Source: an uncultured bacterium
GTDB taxonomy: Bacteria; Patescibacteriota; Minisyncoccia; Phycocordibacterales; Phycocordibacteraceae
Direction of reading: 5' to 3'
DNA length: 42,446 bases
NCBI GenBank assembly: GCA_903994795.1
Contig: CAJEYI010000007.1
Span: 1 to 42,446 of the forward strand
Position 1 is the stretch's first letter. Each line of letters begins with the position of its first letter. Shown piece by piece: positions 7,980 through 42,446 of this stretch. The translations under genes and the position numbers were made by a program. The notes beneath the pieces were generated by a model. The model did no database searches and was not told the DNA's origin. It saw only the letters and a list, made by a program, of their open reading frames with translations.

Positions 7980-8012
7980 AGAGAAAGTATATCAGACAAA
8001 AATACTTCAGCG

Positions 8013-9329
8013 TCAACTTCTTTTTATCAAGCGTGCGGCGCGATGTTTTGCGAGTGAAAATCTGTGTGCCTCGGAGTTTGCAAGTACGGCATCAGCTTCG
8101 CTGATGCCAGCTTTCACTGCCCCGATTACCTCTCTAGGTCGGTGTTTTTCGTCTTTCACAACTGCCACAACTGGTATTGTCATACCAACTTCTGCGAGCA
8201 CTGACTCCGCTGCTTTCTTGTGAGTCTTTCCACCATCAATAATAAATGCTTTTGGAAGTGGCCATTCTTGGTGACCGAGCCGGCGAGAAAGAATTTCTTT
8301 GAGCGAAGCAATGTCATCGTTCATACGCTTTGCGTCTCTCGAGGTTGAGATATTTTTCCCATCGGTGTTGATTTTATTTTTCTGCTCGGTACCGCGTATT
8401 TTAAACATTCTATAGTCAGCCTTTACGGGAACGCCATTTTCTACAACAGTCATCACACCGATAGCGTTACTTCCTGAAATGTGCGCAGTGTCATATGCCT
8501 CTATTCGCGGTGCTTCTTGGCCTTTATCACGATCTTCCTTTATGAGTGAGACGTCCTGTACATGATCGAGCGCAAAGAGTTGTCGACGTATTTCTGCTGC
8601 ATCTTCGAACCGTTCCGCTTTTGCGAACTGATACATCTCACGTGTGAGTGTCGTGCGAAGTGCTTTAACTCGACCTGAGAGAAAGAGCGAAACGTTTCGA
8701 ATAGAACGCAGATACGCCTTCCGATCCATGTCACGTGGGTATTGTCCTATTTGCTGATTGAATTCTACTTTTGCAGTCTGATGCTTGCTCTTTGTGCCTA
8801 TTGGTTTGTCGGTATCATAAAACGGAAAGATTTTGCGAATGATTCGTAAAGCTTCTTTGAGCTGATATCCAGATGGGAATGGTCCATACACCGCCTGATA
8901 TGACACAAATGACCGCGACTGATTAACTGAAAACGTATGCGCATCGAAATCTATGTCTTTTCCACGTATAGCAAGTACGCGTGGAATTTCTTCGGCTGTT
9001 ATAACAGAGTATAGAAATGTTTTGTCGTCTTTGCCTTCTGAGTTTCCTTTAGGGTGATAGTGACGAATAAGTGCGGCTTCGCGCACAAGTGCTTCGAGTA
9101 CTGTTGGAGTCGTCTCGTGCATCAGACCATCGGCCTTTGTGACCATGTCCACAACTCGTGGGCCACGAGTAGCTATGAGATCATCATCAAAGTACGAGCG
9201 CACGCGATCGCGGAGCGATGTTGCCTTTCCTACATACAAGACTTTTTTAGCGCGCCCTTTGCCTTGTGTAAACAAATAGACACCCGGCACGTCGGGTAGT
9301 TCAAACTTTTTTAAATCAGACTTTTCCAT
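8013..9329 (-). CDS. uvrC: Excinuclease ABC subunit C, C-terminally short
   Basis: UvrC makes both incisions around a DNA lesion held by UvrB. The 438-residue protein has an N-terminal GIY-YIG nuclease domain (GVYLFTQGK…VLYVGKATSLRDRV, Glu in LEALVREAALI). A UVR motif for UvrB contact follows (about residues 210-245), and then the RNase H-like domain with acidic residues in EAYDTAHISG, NDDIASLKEIL and FIIDGGKTH. It ends at RAARLIKRS without the tandem helix-hairpin-helix domain that brings typical UvrC to about 600 residues. The cysteines that hold a 4Fe-4S cluster in E. coli UvrC are also absent: the region reads NQQIGQYP instead of the usual YYQIGRCLAPC. Confidence 0.93.
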   Translation of the reverse strand: MEKSDLKKFELPDVPGVYLFTQGKGRAKKVLYVGKATSLRDRVRSYFDDDLIATRGPRVVDMVTKADGLMHETTPTVLEALVREAALIRHYHPKGNSEGKDDKTFLYSVITAEEIPRVLAIRGKDIDFDAHTFSVNQSRSFVSYQAVYGPFPSGYQLKEALRIIRKIFPFYDTDKPIGTKSKHQTAKVEFNQQIGQYPRDMDRKAYLRSIRNVSLFLSGRVKALRTTLTREMYQFAKAERFEDAAEIRRQLFALDHVQDVSLIKEDRDKGQEAPRIEAYDTAHISGSNAIGVMTVVENGVPVKADYRMFKIRGTEQKNKINTDGKNISTSRDAKRMNDDIASLKEILSRRLGHQEWPLPKAFIIDGGKTHKKAAESVLAEVGMTIPVVAVVKDEKHRPREVIGAVKAGISEADAVLANSEAHRFSLAKHRAARLIKRS

Positions 9330-9366
9330 GGTTGATATATTCTAAGAGAAAAAGGATACGAATGTA

Positions 9367-9443
9367 AGAGATTGAAAATCATGTTCTCGCAGATTTGGGT
9401 TTGGCGCGGCAGGCAAATCGAGAGAAGCATGTTTTCAATCTCT
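9367..9443. repeat. 77-bp palindromic element, copy 1 (intergenic, uvrC/uvrA)
   Basis: The outer arms AGAGATTGAAAA (9367-9378) and TTTTCAATCTCT (9432-9443) are perfectly complementary. Inside lies a 46-nt core (9381-9426) that itself pairs TTCTC/GAGAA and GATTTG/CAAATC around a G-rich loop. The core is 45/46 identical to copy 2 inside uvrB (12990-13035). The whole folds as one long hairpin just after the uvrA stop and could terminate uvrA transcription, but no long T run follows. Confidence 0.9.
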
Positions 9444-9451
9444 GCAGCGCG

Positions 9452-12193
9452 TTATTTCCTCTTCTGCTTTTTAAACATTTTTGCGAGGTATTCTCCCGTA
9501 AACGACCCTTCAGTTTCCGCAACTTCCTCCGGTGTTCCCTTTGCAATGACCTTTCCTCCATGCACACCTCCCTCTGGACCAAAGTCGATCAGATAGTCAG
9601 ATGATTTAATGACGTCTAGATTGTGTTCAATAACCACCACTGTATTCCCGCGCCGCACGAGCTCCTGAAGGATTTCGATGAGCTTTCGGACGTCTTCGTA
9701 GTGAAGTCCCACTGTTGGCTCATCGAGTAGGTACAGAGTTTTCGTGGTTATTGGACGATAGAGCTCAGACGCAATCTTCACACGCTGTGCTTCTCCACCA
9801 GAAAGTGTTGTCGCGCTTTGGCCGAGTGTGAGGTATTGAAGCCCTGTTGAATTTAGTGATTCAAGTCGATCATTGATTGCGGGGATATCTTTAAAGAAAA
9901 TCTCTGCTTCCTCGATAGTCATTTGCAACACGTCATAGATATTCTTTCCACGATACGTGACCTCGAGTGTTTCTTTCATGAAACGCGTTCCGTTACAAAC
10001 ATCACACGTGACGTACACGGTCGGCAAGAAGTGCATCTCGACTGCGATAAGTCCGTTTCCTTGGCACGCTTCACATCGTCCACCGGGAACATTGAAAGAG
10101 AAGCGTCCGGGTTTCCAACCACGTGCTCGAGCCTCGTTTGATGCCGCAAAGAGATCGCGAATATGGGTAAACGCTCCTGTATATGTAGCGGGATTAGAGC
10201 GAGGTGTACGACCAATGGCTGACTGGTCCATGAGAATAACTCGACTAATGTACTCTGTCCCTGTCATCGAAGCACAGTTCTCAGTTTTGGCTTCTCGCTT
10301 ACTCATGCGTGCTGCAACATTTTTGTGAAGTACGTCATAGAGGAATGTCGACTTCCCTGAACCAGACACGCCAGTAATAGCCACAAGTTTTCCAAGTGGA
10401 ATGTCCACATTTTGGTTTACGAGATTATGCAAAGTCGCACCGCGCACCTTAATCGAACCCTTTTCACTTGTGCGACGCTCTTCAGGAATCGCTATTTCGG
10501 TCTCGCCACGAAGGTATGAAAGCGTCACTGAGCCGCTGTCATTTTTTGGAGCTGTGAGCAAATCATCGAGCCATCCGGTAGCAACGACATTTCCTCCATG
10601 CACACCGGCACCAGGGCCAATATCCACGAGATAATCTGCTGAATAAATAGTGTCTTCGTCGTGCTCCACAACAAGAATTGTATTGCCAAGCTCTTTAAGC
10701 GTCAGAAGTGTCTGAATGAGTCTGTCGTTGTCGCGCTGATGAAGACCAATTGTTGGTTCATCGAGTACGTATAGAGCACCCACGAGCCCTGTACCGAGCT
10801 GTGAGGCTAAGCGTATGCGTTGTGACTCACCACCAGAAAGTGTTGCTGCGGAACGATTTAGTGTGAGATAGTCGAGTCCGACATTAAGCATGAAGTCGAG
10901 ACGGCTTTCAATTTCACGAATCATTGGTCGTGCAATCTCCATTCGGAATTCTGACAGATCGAGATCCTGGATAAATTCTTTTGCTTCTCGTATAGAAAGA
11001 CCCGTGAAGTCCACGATGTTTTTCCCAAGACCATTATTGTCTTCATTTTTCGGTGCAATGCCCGATTTCTTTGCTTCTGTTTCTTCTTTCTTGCTGATCT
11101 TTCCTGAGTGAGTTCCCTTTAGGTATACACGTAGTGCCTCTGGTCGAAGTCGGAGCCCATTACACACAGGACATACTTCATCTGAAAATAGTGACTTTGT
11201 GCCAAGTCCGTTACAATTTGGACACGCACCATACGGACTATTGAAAGAAAAAAGGCGAGGTTCGACCTCTGGGAATGATGAACCGTCTTCAGGGCATATG
11301 AATTTCGAAGAAAGTGTTTCAACTGAATCATCTGCATGTTTAATTTTCACGAGCCCATCGCTTTGTTTAAGTGCGAGCTCAAGTGCCTCAGACACGCGTT
11401 CACGAGCAGCGTCAGGACTTCGTGCAAATTCTGAAATGAAAATACTATCGACAACCGCATCGATGTCATGCCGTTTATTTCGATCGAGCTCAATCTTTTC
11501 TCGGAGCTGATGACTCTTCCCGTCAATCATTACCTTTTCAAAACCTTTTCCGAGCAAATCATACAGTAGCTGATAGTACTCACCCTTTCGTCCCACAACT
11601 ACGGGCGAAAGAATTGTCACCGTGCTTCGGTCAAATTCTACTCCCATAATCTTCCCTGACGCATCAGTCTTTGGAGATTTCTCAGACACCTTCTTCCAAA
11701 TGATGTTGATCATTTCTTCCTTTGAAAGTTTTGAGATAAGCACGTCATGATGAATACAGTATGGCTGACCTGCTCGCGCATAGAGCACACGAAGGTAGTC
11801 ATAGATCTCTGTGACGGTTGCAACTGTCGAGCGAGGATTGTTTGATCGACTCTTTTGGTCAATCGAAATCGCAGGAGAAAGACCAGTGATCTCATCGACA
11901 TCTGGCTTCTGCATTTGGTTGAGGAATTGTCGTGCATATGCAGAAAGCGACTCCACATAGCGACGCTGGCCTTCTGCGAAGATTGTGTCGAATGCCAGTG
12001 ATGACTTTCCTGAACCTGAAAGTCCTGTGAGCACGGTCATTACTCCACGGGGAATATCGACTGAGATATTCTTGAGATTATGTGTACGAGCACCCTTCAC
12101 TGATATCCAATCAGCGCCTTGGTGCTGTTCGTGCTTTACAGCAGAACGCACTTTTTTAGTCTCTTCAGTTTTCTTTGAGTCTTTAGTTGCCAT
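9452..12193 (-). CDS. uvrA: Excinuclease ABC subunit A
   Basis: UvrA is the damage-sensing ATPase that loads UvrB. The 913-residue protein has two ABC modules. Module I has Walker A GLSGSGKS and signature LSGGESQRI; module II has GVSGSGKS and signature LSGGEAQRV, with [12 protein letters not shown] in between. The second zinc module is complete ([10 protein letters not shown] … [10 protein letters not shown]). The first reads CPEDG…CPNCNG, so one of four cysteines is replaced by Asp; variants of this kind occur in other bacteria. A Lys/Glu-rich linker near residue 370 is longer than usual. It lies between uvrB (28 nt upstream) and uvrC. Confidence 0.97.
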
Positions 12194-12221
12194 CGGGTAT
12201 CAATGCATTATAGCACACTTT

Positions 12222-14393
12222 CTACTTTCTTCGACCTCTCGGCGAGACCTTTTTCTGAGGCACTTCCTTGCCTTCTAGTCTTAAAATCTCATCACGAATG
12301 ATAGCTGCAGTTTCAAAGTCGAGTTGTTCAACAGCATCTGCCATTTGCTGTCTTTTTTCGAGCATAAATGCCTTCGGGTCTTCCTGGTACAGTCGTTCGT
12401 CGAGAGTTAGGAGGGTGTCGACTGTCTTTTGATGCTCTGAACGCATTGAGTCTGCAATGTCACGGATCTCTTTCTTAATAGTCATCGGTGTGATGCCATG
12501 CTCGTGATTGTATGTGAGCTGTATAGTGCGACGGCGATTAGTTTCTGAAATTGCACGCTCCATAGAGCCAGTCATGTTGTCGGCATAGAGAATTACTTTT
12601 CCGAGCACGTTTCGTGCGGCACGACCAATGGTTTGAATAAGTGATGTTTCAGAGCGAAGGAAGCCTTCTTTGTCGGCATCGAGAATTCCCACGAACTCAA
12701 CCTCAGGCAAGTCGAGACCTTCTCGAAGAAGGTTTACACCTACAAGTATGTCGAATGTTCCTTTGCGGAATTCGGTAAGAATGGTGATACGGTCGATAGT
12801 TTTAACGTCGCTATGCAAATATTCAGCTTTAATTCCCTTTTCTTTCAAAAAGTTTGAAAGGTCTTCTGCCATTTGCTTTGTGAGTGTAGTTGCAAGAGCT
12901 CGGCCACCACGTTTTATGACGATTTCTGCTTCTGCGATGAAGTCCGCAATTTGTCCCGGGTAGTTTTGTCTTGGAGCCGAAGCAGAAGTATGTTCTCGTA
13001 GATTTGGGTTTGGCGCGGCAGGCAAATCGAGAGAATCATACTTTTGTTCGGCGCCCGTACCGACGATGGGTCTTATTTCGAGAACCGGATCAACAAGTCC
13101 TGTCGGCCGAATAATCTGCTCAACTATTTGTCCTTTTGGTGGGATGCTGTGTTCCTTTTCGAAGTTACCAGGAGTCGCCGTGGTGAAAATCACCTGTCCA
13201 ATTCGCTTCTCGAACTCATCAAATTTCAACGGACGATTGTCTCGTGCAGATGGCAGTCGGAAACCAAACTCGACAAGATTGTCTTTTCGAGAACGATCAC
13301 CTGCATACATGCCACCGATTTGAGAAACCGTTACATGCGATTCATCTATCACCGTCAGGAAGTCTGCAGAACCATCTGACTTGTGTGGGAAGTATGAAAG
13401 AAGTGTATGCGGAGCTTCGCCTGGAGCACGCCCGTCGAAATGACGTGAGTAGTTCTCAATACCATTTGTGTATCCGACCTCTCGAATCATTGCTAAGTCA
13501 TGCTGAGTGCGACGCTTCAATCGCTCAGCCTCAAGCGGTTTCTCCTCACGTTTAAAATGAAGAAGCTGTGCATCAAGCTCTGCTTGAATTTCTTGAATTG
13601 CTCTCTCTCGTTCAGCGTCATCACTCACAAAGTGTTTTGCAGGAAAGACAAACACAGAATCATGTTCACGAATCTTTGCGCGAGAGATTGAATCGAGCTC
13701 TTCAATTGCGGCGACCTGGCTTCCCTCGTCGCCCACAGTGAACGTCACGCGATAAATTGCGCGCTTGTTAACTGGCATAAATTCCACAGTATTCCCGACA
13801 GCACGAATTTGTCCCGGAGAAAGGTCAGCGTTTGTTCGCTCAAAATATATACCGATAAGTTTTCGGATGAGGGCCGCGCGATTTTCTTCGGCACCCTTTT
13901 CAACTTTCACATGCACTTTTTGATAGTTCTCAGGTGAACCAAGTCCATATATAGCAGACACTGACGCAACAATGATGACGTCTTTTCGTGTGAGTAGGGC
14001 TTGTGTTGCAGCGTGGCGCAGACGATCGATTTCAGCATTGATCTGCGCCTCTTTTTCTATGTACGTATCTGAGTGTGAAATATATGCTTCTGGCTGATAG
14101 TAGTCATAGTATGAGACGAAGTAATGCACGGCATTGTTTGGAAAGAATTCGCTGTACTCCTGAGCGAGTTGAGCTGCAAGAGTTTTATTGTGAGCCATTA
14201 CGAGTGTCGGCTTCTGAATTTGACTGATGACGTTCGCAACTGTATAGGTCTTTCCAGAGCCCGTAACCCCTACAAGGGTTTGGTGCGTTAAGCCATCCTG
14301 CACACCTTTTACGAGCTTCTCAATAGCCTTCGGCTGATCACCAGCAGGAGGAAATGGTGAATGGAGCTTAAATCCTCCGGTATTCTCGTTCAT
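12222..14393 (-). CDS. uvrB: Excinuclease ABC subunit B with an in-frame palindromic insertion
   Basis: UvrB is the helicase-like core of nucleotide excision repair. The 723-residue protein begins with [20 protein letters not shown] and has Walker A GVTGSGKT (residues 42-49), the beta-hairpin region [11 protein letters not shown], helicase motifs up to [10 protein letters not shown], and a C-terminal UVR motif ([14 protein letters not shown]) that binds UvrC. Typical UvrB is about 660-680 residues. The extra residues lie between [15 protein letters not shown] and the segment [13 protein letters not shown]. Residues about 448-473 there are encoded by the 77-bp palindrome. The ATG lies 6 nt after TAGAAT (14400-14405). 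Confidence 0.97.
12976..13052. repeat. 77-bp palindromic element, copy 2 (inside uvrB)
   Basis: The core 12990-13035 matches copy 1 (9381-9426) at 45 of 46 positions; the only difference is T12999 versus C9390. The outer arms differ in sequence from copy 1 but still pair: GCCGAA (12976-12981) with TTCGGC (13047-13052), and AAGTATG (12986-12992) with CATACTT (13037-13043). The total length is the same as copy 1. It is translated on the minus strand as part of the UvrB insert containing [12 protein letters not shown]. Confidence 0.9.
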
Positions 14394-14456
14394 ACTACTA
14401 TTCTATCTGATTATTCAAATCATGTAAGTCCACGCACATTTCACTTTCATGAGAAA

Positions 14457-15701
14457 TTAATAATATGAGGCAAAGAAGTCTGACCTGTACTGTTCGAAAG
14501 TTCCCTGCATAAGTGCTTCTCGAGCACCATCAACGAGCTGAATGATAAATCCTAAATTGTGCATTGATGCTATGACTTGCCCCAGAATCTCTTTTGACTT
14601 TAATAGATGCGATACATATGCGCGAGTAAATCCCTCAGTCCCCGGTACAACTATATGTGGGTCGAGTGGAGCAAAGTCATACGTGAACTTCTCGTTTGTG
14701 AGGTTTATTGGGCCTTGCTTTGTATAAATAGTTCCGTGTCTTCCCAGTCTTGTAGCCGCAACACAATCAAAAAGATCCATGCCTTCTGCAATACCATTTA
14801 AAATATCACCTGGTTCGCCTATGCCAAGAAAGTGTCGCGGCTTGTCTTCGGGAAGTTCCGTAATGGCTGCTTGAAGTGCTCCCTGCATGTCTTCTTTGCT
14901 AAACGAACCCCCTATGCCGAAACCATCGAACTCCATACTCGCAATCTCTCGGGCACTTTCCTTTCGTAAGTCTTCATGACGACCACCCTGCACAATACCG
15001 AAAATTGACTGATCTTTTGCGGAAAGGTTTTGTCTGTGTGCCTTGAGTGATCGAAGTGCCCATCTATGAGTGCGATCCATGGCTTCTTTTTGATATTCGT
15101 ATGGCTCGGTTGGAGACGTACACTCATCAAACGCAAAGAACATGTCAGCTCCTAGCGCGTGCTGAATCTCAACTGATCGCTCAGGAGTGAATCGATGAAG
15201 CGAGCCGTCGTGGTGGGATGTAAACGTCACGCCTTCGTCATCTACAATGGCGAGCTGCCCATGTTGTGTTGCAACGTCTTCGTCATATACCGAGACATGT
15301 TGAGCTTGTGCTATTTCTTCTTCTGTCCGTGCTATCACTTCTCCTTTTGCAATTTTTGTAATAGTTTTTCCAAATGCTGCACCAAGCGAGAATACTTGGA
15401 AACCGCCGGAGTCAGTCATGGTTGGACCTTTCCAGTCCATAAATGACCCAAGGCCACCTGCTTGCTTTACAACTTCTTCTCCTGGTTGAAGGTACAGATG
15501 GTATGTATTTGCGAGCACTACTTGTGCACCAAGATTAACTAGTTGCTCAGGTAGCACGCCTTTCACGCCCGCCTTTGTTCCCACTGGTACGAATGCTGGA
15601 GTGTGAATAGTTCCATGCTTCGTTGTTAAAACTCCCGCACGAGCATTCTTGCTCAGTGAGTTTTCTTTGCCACGAGCTAATATAGAAAATGTTAATGCCA
15701 T
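14457..15701 (-). CDS. tgt: Queuine/preQ1 tRNA-ribosyltransferase, zinc site degenerate
   Basis: Tgt exchanges guanine-34 of GUN tRNAs for preQ1. The 414-residue protein keeps the catalytic core: base-recognition motif TDSGGFQVFSL (D97), IVQGGRHEDLR, FGIGGS, and nucleophile region DLFDCVAATRLGRHG (D312). The zinc site of the family, C-x-C-x2-C plus a distant His, is lost: the region reads DPHIVVPGTEGFTRAY (347-362) with no cysteine, though His381 of MHNLGF remains. There is also an insertion of about 35-40 residues (116-155) before GVTFTSHHDGS. It lies 63 nt upstream of uvrB. Ribosome contact may come from AGGGAG directly before the ATG. Confidence 0.9.
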   Translation of the reverse strand: MALTFSILARGKENSLSKNARAGVLTTKHGTIHTPAFVPVGTKAGVKGVLPEQLVNLGAQVVLANTYHLYLQPGEEVVKQAGGLGSFMDWKGPTMTDSGGFQVFSLGAAFGKTITKIAKGEVIARTEEEIAQAQHVSVYDEDVATQHGQLAIVDDEGVTFTSHHDGSLHRFTPERSVEIQHALGADMFFAFDECTSPTEPYEYQKEAMDRTHRWALRSLKAHRQNLSAKDQSIFGIVQGGRHEDLRKESAREIASMEFDGFGIGGSFSKEDMQGALQAAITELPEDKPRHFLGIGEPGDILNGIAEGMDLFDCVAATRLGRHGTIYTKQGPINLTNEKFTYDFAPLDPHIVVPGTEGFTRAYVSHLLKSKEILGQVIASMHNLGFIIQLVDGAREALMQGTFEQYRSDFFASYY

Positions 15702-15796
15702 CTCCCTACGTTACTAGGCATTCAATTTATCGCAACTTATATTTTATATAGCACATTAGCTCTGCGACATCTTCATGAAGAAAGTCAAGTAATACA

Positions 15797-15825
15797 TTGA
15801 CATTGTAGACATATAGTGATATAAA
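15797..15825 (+). promoter_or_regulatory. Consensus sigma-70 promoter of the lipoprotein gene
   Basis: TTGACA (15797-15802) and TATAAA (15820-15825) are separated by 17 nt. The predicted transcript starts near 15832 and carries a leader of about 95 nt, unlike the leaderless genes around it. The rest of the 15702-15926 gap shows nothing else I can name. Confidence 0.7.
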
Positions 15826-15926
15826 GTATCCAGACGTGCGAGGTCTTTGAAAGAAGATCAATTGTGCGTTTCCCAACAACCACACCCCCGAAACCCCGCC
15901 ATAATGGCAAACACGAGGACAAAGTC

Positions 15927-16619
15927 ATGCGTACCACGACTCAACTCTCCCTGCTGGCCATTCTGGCCGGCCTCACACTCTCGGGTTGCGCCGGCGCACC
16001 GATCGACAGTTCGTCGTTGGTGCATACGCCCGCAGCGACCCTTAAGATCGCTGAAAAAGCGAAAAGCATCGGCGGGAGCTACATAATCAACCCCTACCGG
16101 GGAACCGCCGACGATCCAACCGGTGCGGTCCAGCTGAACGCAGAGTCCTTCCTAGACTTCGCCTATCTGGAACAAACCTGTCGGTACAATCTCCGACGTC
16201 AACAACCCGGTGGAGTGGACTCGATTGGCACTTCAACCGTCGCCGGAGCTGCTTCAGGAGCCATTGGTGAAACCTTTGGCGAAGAAGCCATTGGAGCCAC
16301 TGCGCAGACGGTAGAACGTGCCGCGAAGTTCGGTGCAGCCTCAGGTGCAGGTTCGGGCCTTGTGAATGGCGTCGTCAATCATGCTGGAGCCAAGCGTCGT
16401 CAATTTGGGTCATGCATGTCACAGCAAGTGAACATGGCCCAGCACAACGAAAAAGCGGGTCACCTCCGAAACTATGGAGTGCTCGTGGACAGTGACATCG
16501 TCGATGGCACCCCGATCGCTAGGCCCAGCAACCACTTCGCCCCTCCGCCCGTGCTGATCCCACTCAAGCATGCGGGTCAGGTGGACGAGAACACCACCGG
16601 CGACGAAGATCCGCACTAG
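15927..16619 (+). CDS. Putative lipoprotein with glycine-zipper segment
   Basis: The start is placed at ATG 15927, with GAGGA at 15915-15919, giving 230 residues; the frame is open further upstream but that lies in the leader. The N-terminus is a lipoprotein signal: basic MRTTTQ, a hydrophobic stretch, then the lipobox LSGC at residues 16-19. The middle contains small-residue repeats (GAASGAIGETFGEEAIGA, KFGAASGAGSGLVNGV) typical of glycine-zipper membrane-inserting segments. The tail is hydrophilic and Pro-rich. I do not recognise a family. Its G+C-rich codons, plus strand, consensus promoter, ribosome site and terminator hairpin set it apart from its neighbours, so recent acquisition is likely. 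Confidence 0.75.
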   Translation: MRTTTQLSLLAILAGLTLSGCAGAPIDSSSLVHTPAATLKIAEKAKSIGGSYIINPYRGTADDPTGAVQLNAESFLDFAYLEQTCRYNLRRQQPGGVDSIGTSTVAGAASGAIGETFGEEAIGATAQTVERAAKFGAASGAGSGLVNGVVNHAGAKRRQFGSCMSQQVNMAQHNEKAGHLRNYGVLVDSDIVDGTPIARPSNHFAPPPVLIPLKHAGQVDENTTGDEDPH

Positions 16620-41978: not shown

Positions 41979-42022
41979 ATATTCGTGTTTTTGTATTCGC
42001 ATGAATACGAAATCACGAATAT
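41979..42022 (+). promoter_or_regulatory. Long hairpin with the transposase start codon at its loop
   Basis: The left arm (41979-41998) and right arm (42003-42022) are 20 nt each and pair with two mismatches around a 4-nt loop GCAT. The ATG of the transposase (42001-42003) lies at the loop and first pair. It may be an end of the IS or an RNA switch limiting transposase synthesis. Confidence 0.6.
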
Positions 42023-42446
42023 GTCCGGTATGTGGAGGAAGAAAGACTATTAAAAAAGGAAGCTCAGGGAATCGAAAACAGTTGTTTGGGTGCAAAGAAT
42101 GTGGCCACCGGTTCACACTCTCACGACAGAAAAAGAAGACGGCGGTACACCGTCTCTGGATAGACTTCGTCTTCCACAAACAAACACTCCGAGAACTCGC
42201 AGAGACGTATCCACTGGATAGAAAGACCATCTATGCATACTTGCTCTCGTACGTGGTGCGGGAGAAGAAACATCACCCACGACCCGTGCACCTCCTAGTG
42301 GACGCACTCTATTTTGGAGTGCGCGAAGAGCGCACCAGCTGGTGCGCTCTGGTGTTTCGCGACCATGACACCAAGGAGAATCTCTGGTGGACATGGGGAC
42401 GTACAGAGACAGAGAGTCTGTATTTCATGGGACGGGAGACACTTGA
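42001..42446 (+). CDS. IS256-like transposase, partial (zinc-ribbon variant)
   Basis: The frame opens with ATG 42001 and runs to the right edge without a stop (148 codons). The N-terminus has a zinc ribbon, RICPVCGG then FGCKECGHRF, followed by a helix-turn-helix (TLRELAETYPLDRKTIYAYL) and then VHLLVDALYFGVREE, the first catalytic Asp region of a DDE transposase. WWTWGRTETESLYF follows. The set fits the zinc-binding variant of IS256-family transposases, but with only part of the protein the family is tentative. It disrupts or abuts the peptidase S51 gene. Confidence 0.75.
   Translation, partial: MNTKSRICPVCGGRKTIKKGSSGNRKQLFGCKECGHRFTLSRQKKKTAVHRLWIDFVFHKQTLRELAETYPLDRKTIYAYLLSYVVREKKHHPRPVHLLVDALYFGVREERTSWCALVFRDHDTKENLWWTWGRTETESLYFMGRETL
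42327..42350. repeat. 24-bp perfect palindrome inside the transposase gene
   Basis: AGAGCGCACCAG and CTGGTGCGCTCT form a perfect 12+12 palindrome with no loop. It encodes EERTSWCAL. It could be a cruciform or a binding site for the transposase, but its position in the coding region makes chance or codon constraint possible. Confidence 0.6.

Follow-up and report, generated by a model that had tools for sequence, protein, structure and literature searches.

A dispersed palindromic element with a conserved core and copy-specific paired arms in and around the uvr genes of Patescibacteria

The window, the whole stretch of 42,446 nucleotides that was analysed, carries on its minus strand the genes uvrC (8013-9329, 438 aa, Pfam UvrC_RNaseH_dom), uvrA (9452-12193, 913 aa, Pfam UvrA_inter), uvrB (12222-14393, 723 aa, Pfam UvrB, Helicase_C, UvrB_inter and UVR) and tgt (14457-15701, 414 aa, Pfam TGT). 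Two palindromic elements of 77 nt lie among them, one in the gap between uvrA and uvrC (plus strand, 9367-9443) and one inside uvrB (plus strand, 12976-13052), where minus-strand translation makes it part of residues 448-473. Each consists of a 46-nt core flanked by two arms: in the gap copy the core occupies 9381-9426 (+) and the arms approximately 9367-9380 and 9427-9443, and in the uvrB copy the core occupies 12990-13035 (+) and the arms approximately 12976-12989 and 13036-13052. Direct reading bears out the original prediction that two such elements stand at these positions with cores identical at 45 of 46 bases, a single base differing between them, and a repeat search aligns 9381-9435 with 12990-13044 at 93% identity over 55 nt.

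On either strand, each 77-nt copy forms a single long hairpin (-25.5 to -34.8 kcal/mol, z -4.8 to -6.5), and 0 or 1 of 200 shuffles fold as well. The core of about 46 nt folds as an imperfect hairpin, with the stems TTCTC/GAGAA and GATTTG/CAAATC and a 16-nt loop. A simple hairpin finder returned 7 hairpins in the window, and three dinucleotide shuffles gave 0, 1 and 0. It recovered 9367-9443 and missed the uvrB copy, in which the stem is bulged. A known RNA family was rejected as the identity of the element, as window positions 8000-16000 have no Rfam match at E up to 1.

Further copies exist, so that the two elements of the original prediction are both real but its count was too low. In the genome of the window (G000), a pattern search allowing up to three mismatches found a third copy, and the exact core was also found on a contig from a public collection, which bears the title Candidatus Parcubacteria bacterium and belongs to a second genome (G058). 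A covariance model trained on four copies and then run on the genomes places copies at five sites in G000, at 60.8-102.6 bits, two extra rows being opposite-strand hits to these sites. These sites are uvrB (102.6 bits), the uvrA-uvrC gap (95.2 bits), the start of a mutY-like gene, the yebC-ruvC gap, and the 3' side of a class I aminoacyl-tRNA synthetase gene (Pfam tRNA-synt_1 and Anticodon_1; valS by eye). In G058 there are copies at two places, uvrA and tgt, with 91.9 and 71.4 bits. The sites filled in G058 are empty in the uvrA and tgt of the window (at tgt, MDWKGPTMTDSGG), and at uvrB the contrast is reversed, the window being filled and G058 lacking the core, between proteins that are 86% identical. 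Non-orthologous sites in two genomes, together with their empty counterparts, indicate that the element is mobile, or formerly was. The proposal of a palindrome that moves and lands within coding genes, as Rickettsia palindromic elements (RPEs) do, is thereby supported, and a covariance search, which had been put forward as its check, returned more copies with a conserved core, varying paired arms and empty orthologous sites.

The core had no match at E 0.1 in 57 relatives besides G000, 33 of which belong to the genus of G000. A wider search of 383 genomes of the class gave weak matches of 23-36 bits in six others; these were rejected as the window core since by eye they are other hairpins. 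In two of the loci, from genomes of other families (L014 of G222 and L016 of G271), a common asymmetric core, about TTTGCATTTTnnGATTTnGCGCGCG, lies inside long unrelated arms, and this is perhaps another hairpin family of like architecture. A phage or plasmid origin was set aside, there being no match to the element in the viral contigs, plasmids and phages searched.

The copies in uvrB, mutY, uvrA and tgt are in frame and share one strand and one reading frame, and the uvrB copy can be read through in at least four of the six frames. The alignment of the best solved match to UvrB, chain E of 9gy7, covers residues 8-445 and 480-708, and the chain has nothing in the intervening interval (429 followed by 429), so the segment predicted to be translated at 448-473 is in frame here and absent from a family member. 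A UvrB search matched 52 of 58 genus genomes, and the loop was compared in 30 genes, drawn from the best 30 of these 52 plus G058, with one dropped. In 15 of the 30 genes the loop has at most 10 residues, and perfect inverted repeats there do not exceed 5 nt. The loop has at least 12 residues in the other 15, ten of which contain a perfect inverted repeat of 8-24 nt, and the sequences of these ten palindromes are mutually unrelated. The alignment of homologues by which the segment was to be judged thus finds it in only part of the relatives, half of the genes having a short loop. The UvrB loop is a hot spot for palindromes, which have arisen there recurrently and independently within the genus. 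The position of the insert at a loop of variable length suggests that UvrB tolerates it, presumably as a flexible insert in the junction that precedes the second helicase domain. Coding copies would survive in general where the reading frame stays open and the protein offers a permissive surface loop.

No transposase is tied to the window family, which counts against the mobile reading preferred below. G000 has one match to Y1_Tnp (L225, contig C39), with 61% GC compared with 44% for the window and without flanking palindromes, and G058 has none, both assemblies being incomplete; the flanked RAYT gene of REP systems is therefore lacking in the sequence at hand. The Y1 gene of L225 reads like a proteobacterial RAYT, and its contig may be foreign. 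The first 20 kb of another G000 contig, C5 (L238), have a GC content of 55.5% compared with 44-46% in the other four G000 stretches, and this contig, too, is possibly foreign.

Relatives contain palindromes within tgt, uvrB, uvrA and uvrC across 16 loci, and in one sister family, F1, two AAGGTnnnACCTT units form an inverted doublet with a loop of 13-15 nt between them (about GAGGATTCGGATTT). Of 91 genus genomes, 26 contain the F1 pattern and none contains the reversed-pattern control; no F1 unit was found in 134 kb of G000. The analysis covers 48 distinct copies, with G453, G488 and most of G440 outside the set and with orthologous copies that are not independent. F1 lies in frame in topA, dusB, tsaD, dnaG, def, mutY, dnaE and uvrA/B/C. 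As an inverted REP doublet that forms a hairpin it has the build of a REPIN, and by eye no GTAG head adjoins its units in the 48 listed copies. In G468 (L149) the F1 doublet is seemingly nested in another REP unit, with the common outer arms GCAAAAC/GTTTTGC.

Y1_Tnp genes are present in 24 of the 26 F1 genomes and in 33 of the 65 others, with means of 3.8 and 1.0 (Fisher p 2e-4, genomes treated without correction for relatedness). Among 31 Y1 loci, 14 passed an MPNHxH motif filter and 17 were dropped. The same palindrome stands on both sides of six of the 14 genes, on one side of two and on neither side of six. Of the six genes flanked on both sides, four carry F1-type palindromes (L226, L227, L253 and L261) and two carry other types (L254 and L255), and at L228, one of the two one-side loci, a second copy of the palindrome is visible at the gene end. 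F1 therefore shares with REPINs the arrangement of the same palindrome flanking RAYT genes. In L226 and L227 the RAYT coding sequences themselves contain a REP-like unit (KLQGRTLEEI and KLQGSTLLEI).

Two known systems resemble these families. RPEs are in-frame palindromes in genes that likely encode working proteins, and two REP-type inserts have been reported in R. conorii uvrB (PMC3733652). The window family shares the in-frame placement, whereas its element is about 77 nt long, combines a conserved core with copy-specific arms and comes from a different phylum; the comparison is one of architecture, not of sequence. The likeness to REP/REPIN elements and their RAYT (TnpA-REP) lies in the short, dispersed palindromes that form hairpins. 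REP units flanking RAYT genes are the defining arrangement of REPtrons (PMC2817692, PMC3116915), which F1 resembles in both the inverted doublet and the flanked genes. In contrast, the core of the window family is a single imperfect hairpin whose halves are not palindromic, GTAG occurs in two of its seven copies by eye and inside the stem rather than as a conserved head, its arms are long and vary among copies, many copies are intragenic, and no flanked RAYT was found.

Intragenic REPs and REP dimers in uvrA, uvrB and other repair or replication genes were described from R. conorii, Opitutus terrae and Thioalkalivibrio by Di Nocera and colleagues in 2013 (PMC3733652). The present elements differ in belonging to Patescibacteria, in the recurrent palindromes of the UvrB loop and in paired arms outside the conserved unit, the last two of which do not appear in the portion of that paper covered here. 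A literature search, in which subscription papers are thinly covered, found nothing joining REP, REPIN or RAYT with Patescibacteria or CPR, and the terms Patescibacteria, candidate phyl and Parcubacteria are absent from PMC12306157. REPs inside uvr genes are already known from other phyla, and on our best reading a variant with a conserved core and locally made arms is found here. Small intragenic palindromes are usually treated as Rickettsia curiosities; here, in one genus of reduced genomes, they land repeatedly in the same loops of essential proteins, and for one family transposase genes of the right kind bear the same palindrome.

Across the seven copies of the window family, the 28-nt inner core is 97% identical, while the left arms are 34% and the right arms 31% identical. 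Pairing between the two arms of a single copy yields -17.6 to -30.5 kcal/mol, compared with an average of -8.6 and a best value no better than -16.5 kcal/mol for the 42 swapped arm pairs; arms that differ between copies and still pair within each, as originally described, are thus a property of the whole family. The F1 arms are bimodal, 25 of the 48 listed copies having 5-11 paired nt (mode 8) and 23 having 0-3, and among 2256 pairs of swapped F1 arms, 2.5% have at least 5 paired nt. The origin of new hairpin stems, whether by selection, by target choice or by one-step template switching, is a question that such copy-specific pairing can inform.

On balance, the element is probably a mobile palindrome of the REP/RPE type, of which the core spreads and the arms arise locally from the landing site. 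The spreading unit would be the core, probably in the form of a single-stranded hairpin. By analogy with REPs, for which handling by RAYTs has been proposed, the core may be handled in trans by an HUH (Y1) enzyme. The arms could arise by two routes. Replication across the new hairpin might switch template, so that one flank is copied as the reverse complement of the other, or the core might enter the loop of an existing hairpin. Template switching has been described as a one-event creation or repair of perfect stems (Monttinen and Loytynoja 2022, PMC8794818). Such an event would yield copy-specific arms, and the portion of that paper covered here describes it for RNA genes, not for mobile palindromes. 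Several observations weigh against the reading of a mobile core with locally made arms: the 23 F1 copies with arms of 0-3 nt; the tgt of G058, where both arms lie within extra residues and neither is clearly ancestral; and the closest comparable genomes, which are about 86% identical in UvrB and present no fresh insertion. At that distance the pre-insertion bases are reconstructed from relatives.

The empty sites of F1 speak to when arms form. At uvrA the site is short in 29 of 37 genomes. A perfect inverted repeat of at least 6 nt is lacking in 28 of the 29, the sole exception carrying a single REP-like unit; in G484, the alignment cut off an insert further to the right. At dusB, where 5 of 30 loci gave no usable segment, all 16 short sites likewise lack such a repeat. 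Empty sites without a hairpin favour arms made at or after insertion. In the uvrA of G475, the right arm matches the ACG (Thr) codon expected there, and CGT has appeared in the left arm where 23 of the 29 short sites encode Lys-Arg. The uvrA of G477 and the uvrC of G013 also have the expected codons under the right arm and a new left arm. The left arm is instead the expected flank in the dusB of G475 and G440 and in the topA of G468, G448 and G477. The G477 topA insert is reversed relative to the others at the common site and hence represents an independent insertion. These eight cases in uvrA, uvrC, dusB and topA would fit, from their sequences, an inverted copy of one flank; in the uvrA, uvrB and dusB of G013 and in the window family, neither arm is clearly the ancestral one. 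In G448, G005 and G449 (L163, L164 and L178), non-F1 palindromes occupy the dusB position at which three other genomes have F1.

A tentative alternative, possible though distinctly less probable, is that the core inserts specifically into pre-existing hairpins, such as terminators or older palindromes, and that the arms are older than the core everywhere. Removal of the 43-nt core from the window uvrB leaves 89 nt, which align better to the 81 nt of G058 (score 51.0 versus 40.5), where a decayed hairpin is found. A palindrome occupies the UvrB loop in ten of the 30 genes, and by eye the intergenic copies could sit on terminator stems. Against this stand the hairpin-free F1 short sites of uvrA and dusB counted above and the weakness of the G058 hairpin, whose margin over shuffles is small (z -1.45) and which may just as well be what remained once the core had been lost. 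The core-removal result would fit either core entry into an existing hairpin or later core loss. Of the two origins originally offered for the arms, the insertion of a core into a stem-loop accordingly retains modest support, at uvrB only, from the decayed hairpin of G058, but is opposed by the empty sites of the sister REP family; selection alone has become the less likely.

That latter origin, in which selection on DNA or RNA structure keeps the arms paired through compensatory substitutions, appears unlikely. A covarying pair distinguishes the topA copies of G468 and G448, which are orthologous (CCCGAACC/GGTTCGGG and CCCGCACC/GGTGCGGG), the inner stems of F1 also covary, and compensatory change has been reported in REPINs (PMC3116915). 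However, wholly different arms surround cores that are 97% identical, which point mutation cannot produce in that time. Arms were moreover lost or never present in nearly half of the listed F1 copies (23 of 48), and the topA orthologues of G013 and G475 retain the left flank without a paired right arm. A segmental duplication within the uvr cluster without any mobile element, suggested by two copies 3.6 kb apart and named beforehand as an outcome that would refute the proposal, is rejected as most improbable, as three of the five G000 copies lie on other contigs, two lie at different sites in G058, and neither flanks nor arms are common to the copies.

The elements crowd the repair cluster. 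Across 16 loci, occurrences of four REP-like motifs number 30 in the 94.6 kb of uvrABC/tgt and 2 in the surrounding 84.8 kb, or 19 and none after removal of the richest locus, a biased count since the motifs were chosen after inspection of the same loci. In G013, the 13.5-kb cluster locus contains 13 occurrences of two motifs, compared with 9 in 100 kb of other stretches, and hairpins of 13 or more number 12 in the cluster versus 17 elsewhere. At least two of the five G000 copies lie in the cluster (p 7e-4, post hoc, the window having been picked for those copies), as do both of the G058 copies (2e-4, sizes rounded). Local mobility or a role in the cluster, as suggested at the outset, may lie behind the enrichment in uvrABC/tgt, which is real within the sample. 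The 2013 survey judged a fortuitous explanation hard for REPs in uvrA or uvrB of R. conorii, O. terrae and Thioalkalivibrio (PMC3733652). With that report from three other lineages, the crowding makes repair genes testable as a preferred or favoured landing place, and in relatives of the window, hairpins of a comparable kind are unusually frequent in these same genes. A more speculative proposal, which we consider doubtful, is a class of mobile hairpins that build their own stem from target DNA, a loop core plus an inverted flank copy, and are drawn to or retained in nucleotide-excision-repair genes across distant phyla, perhaps as inserts in UvrA and UvrB that tune the repair of such hairpins.

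At the end of the window (41979-42446), a hairpin at 41979-42022 and a perfect 24-nt palindrome at 42327-42350 lie within or before an ORF that has a zinc-ribbon transposase-like start and exits the window. By eye, they possibly mark the end of an insertion sequence.
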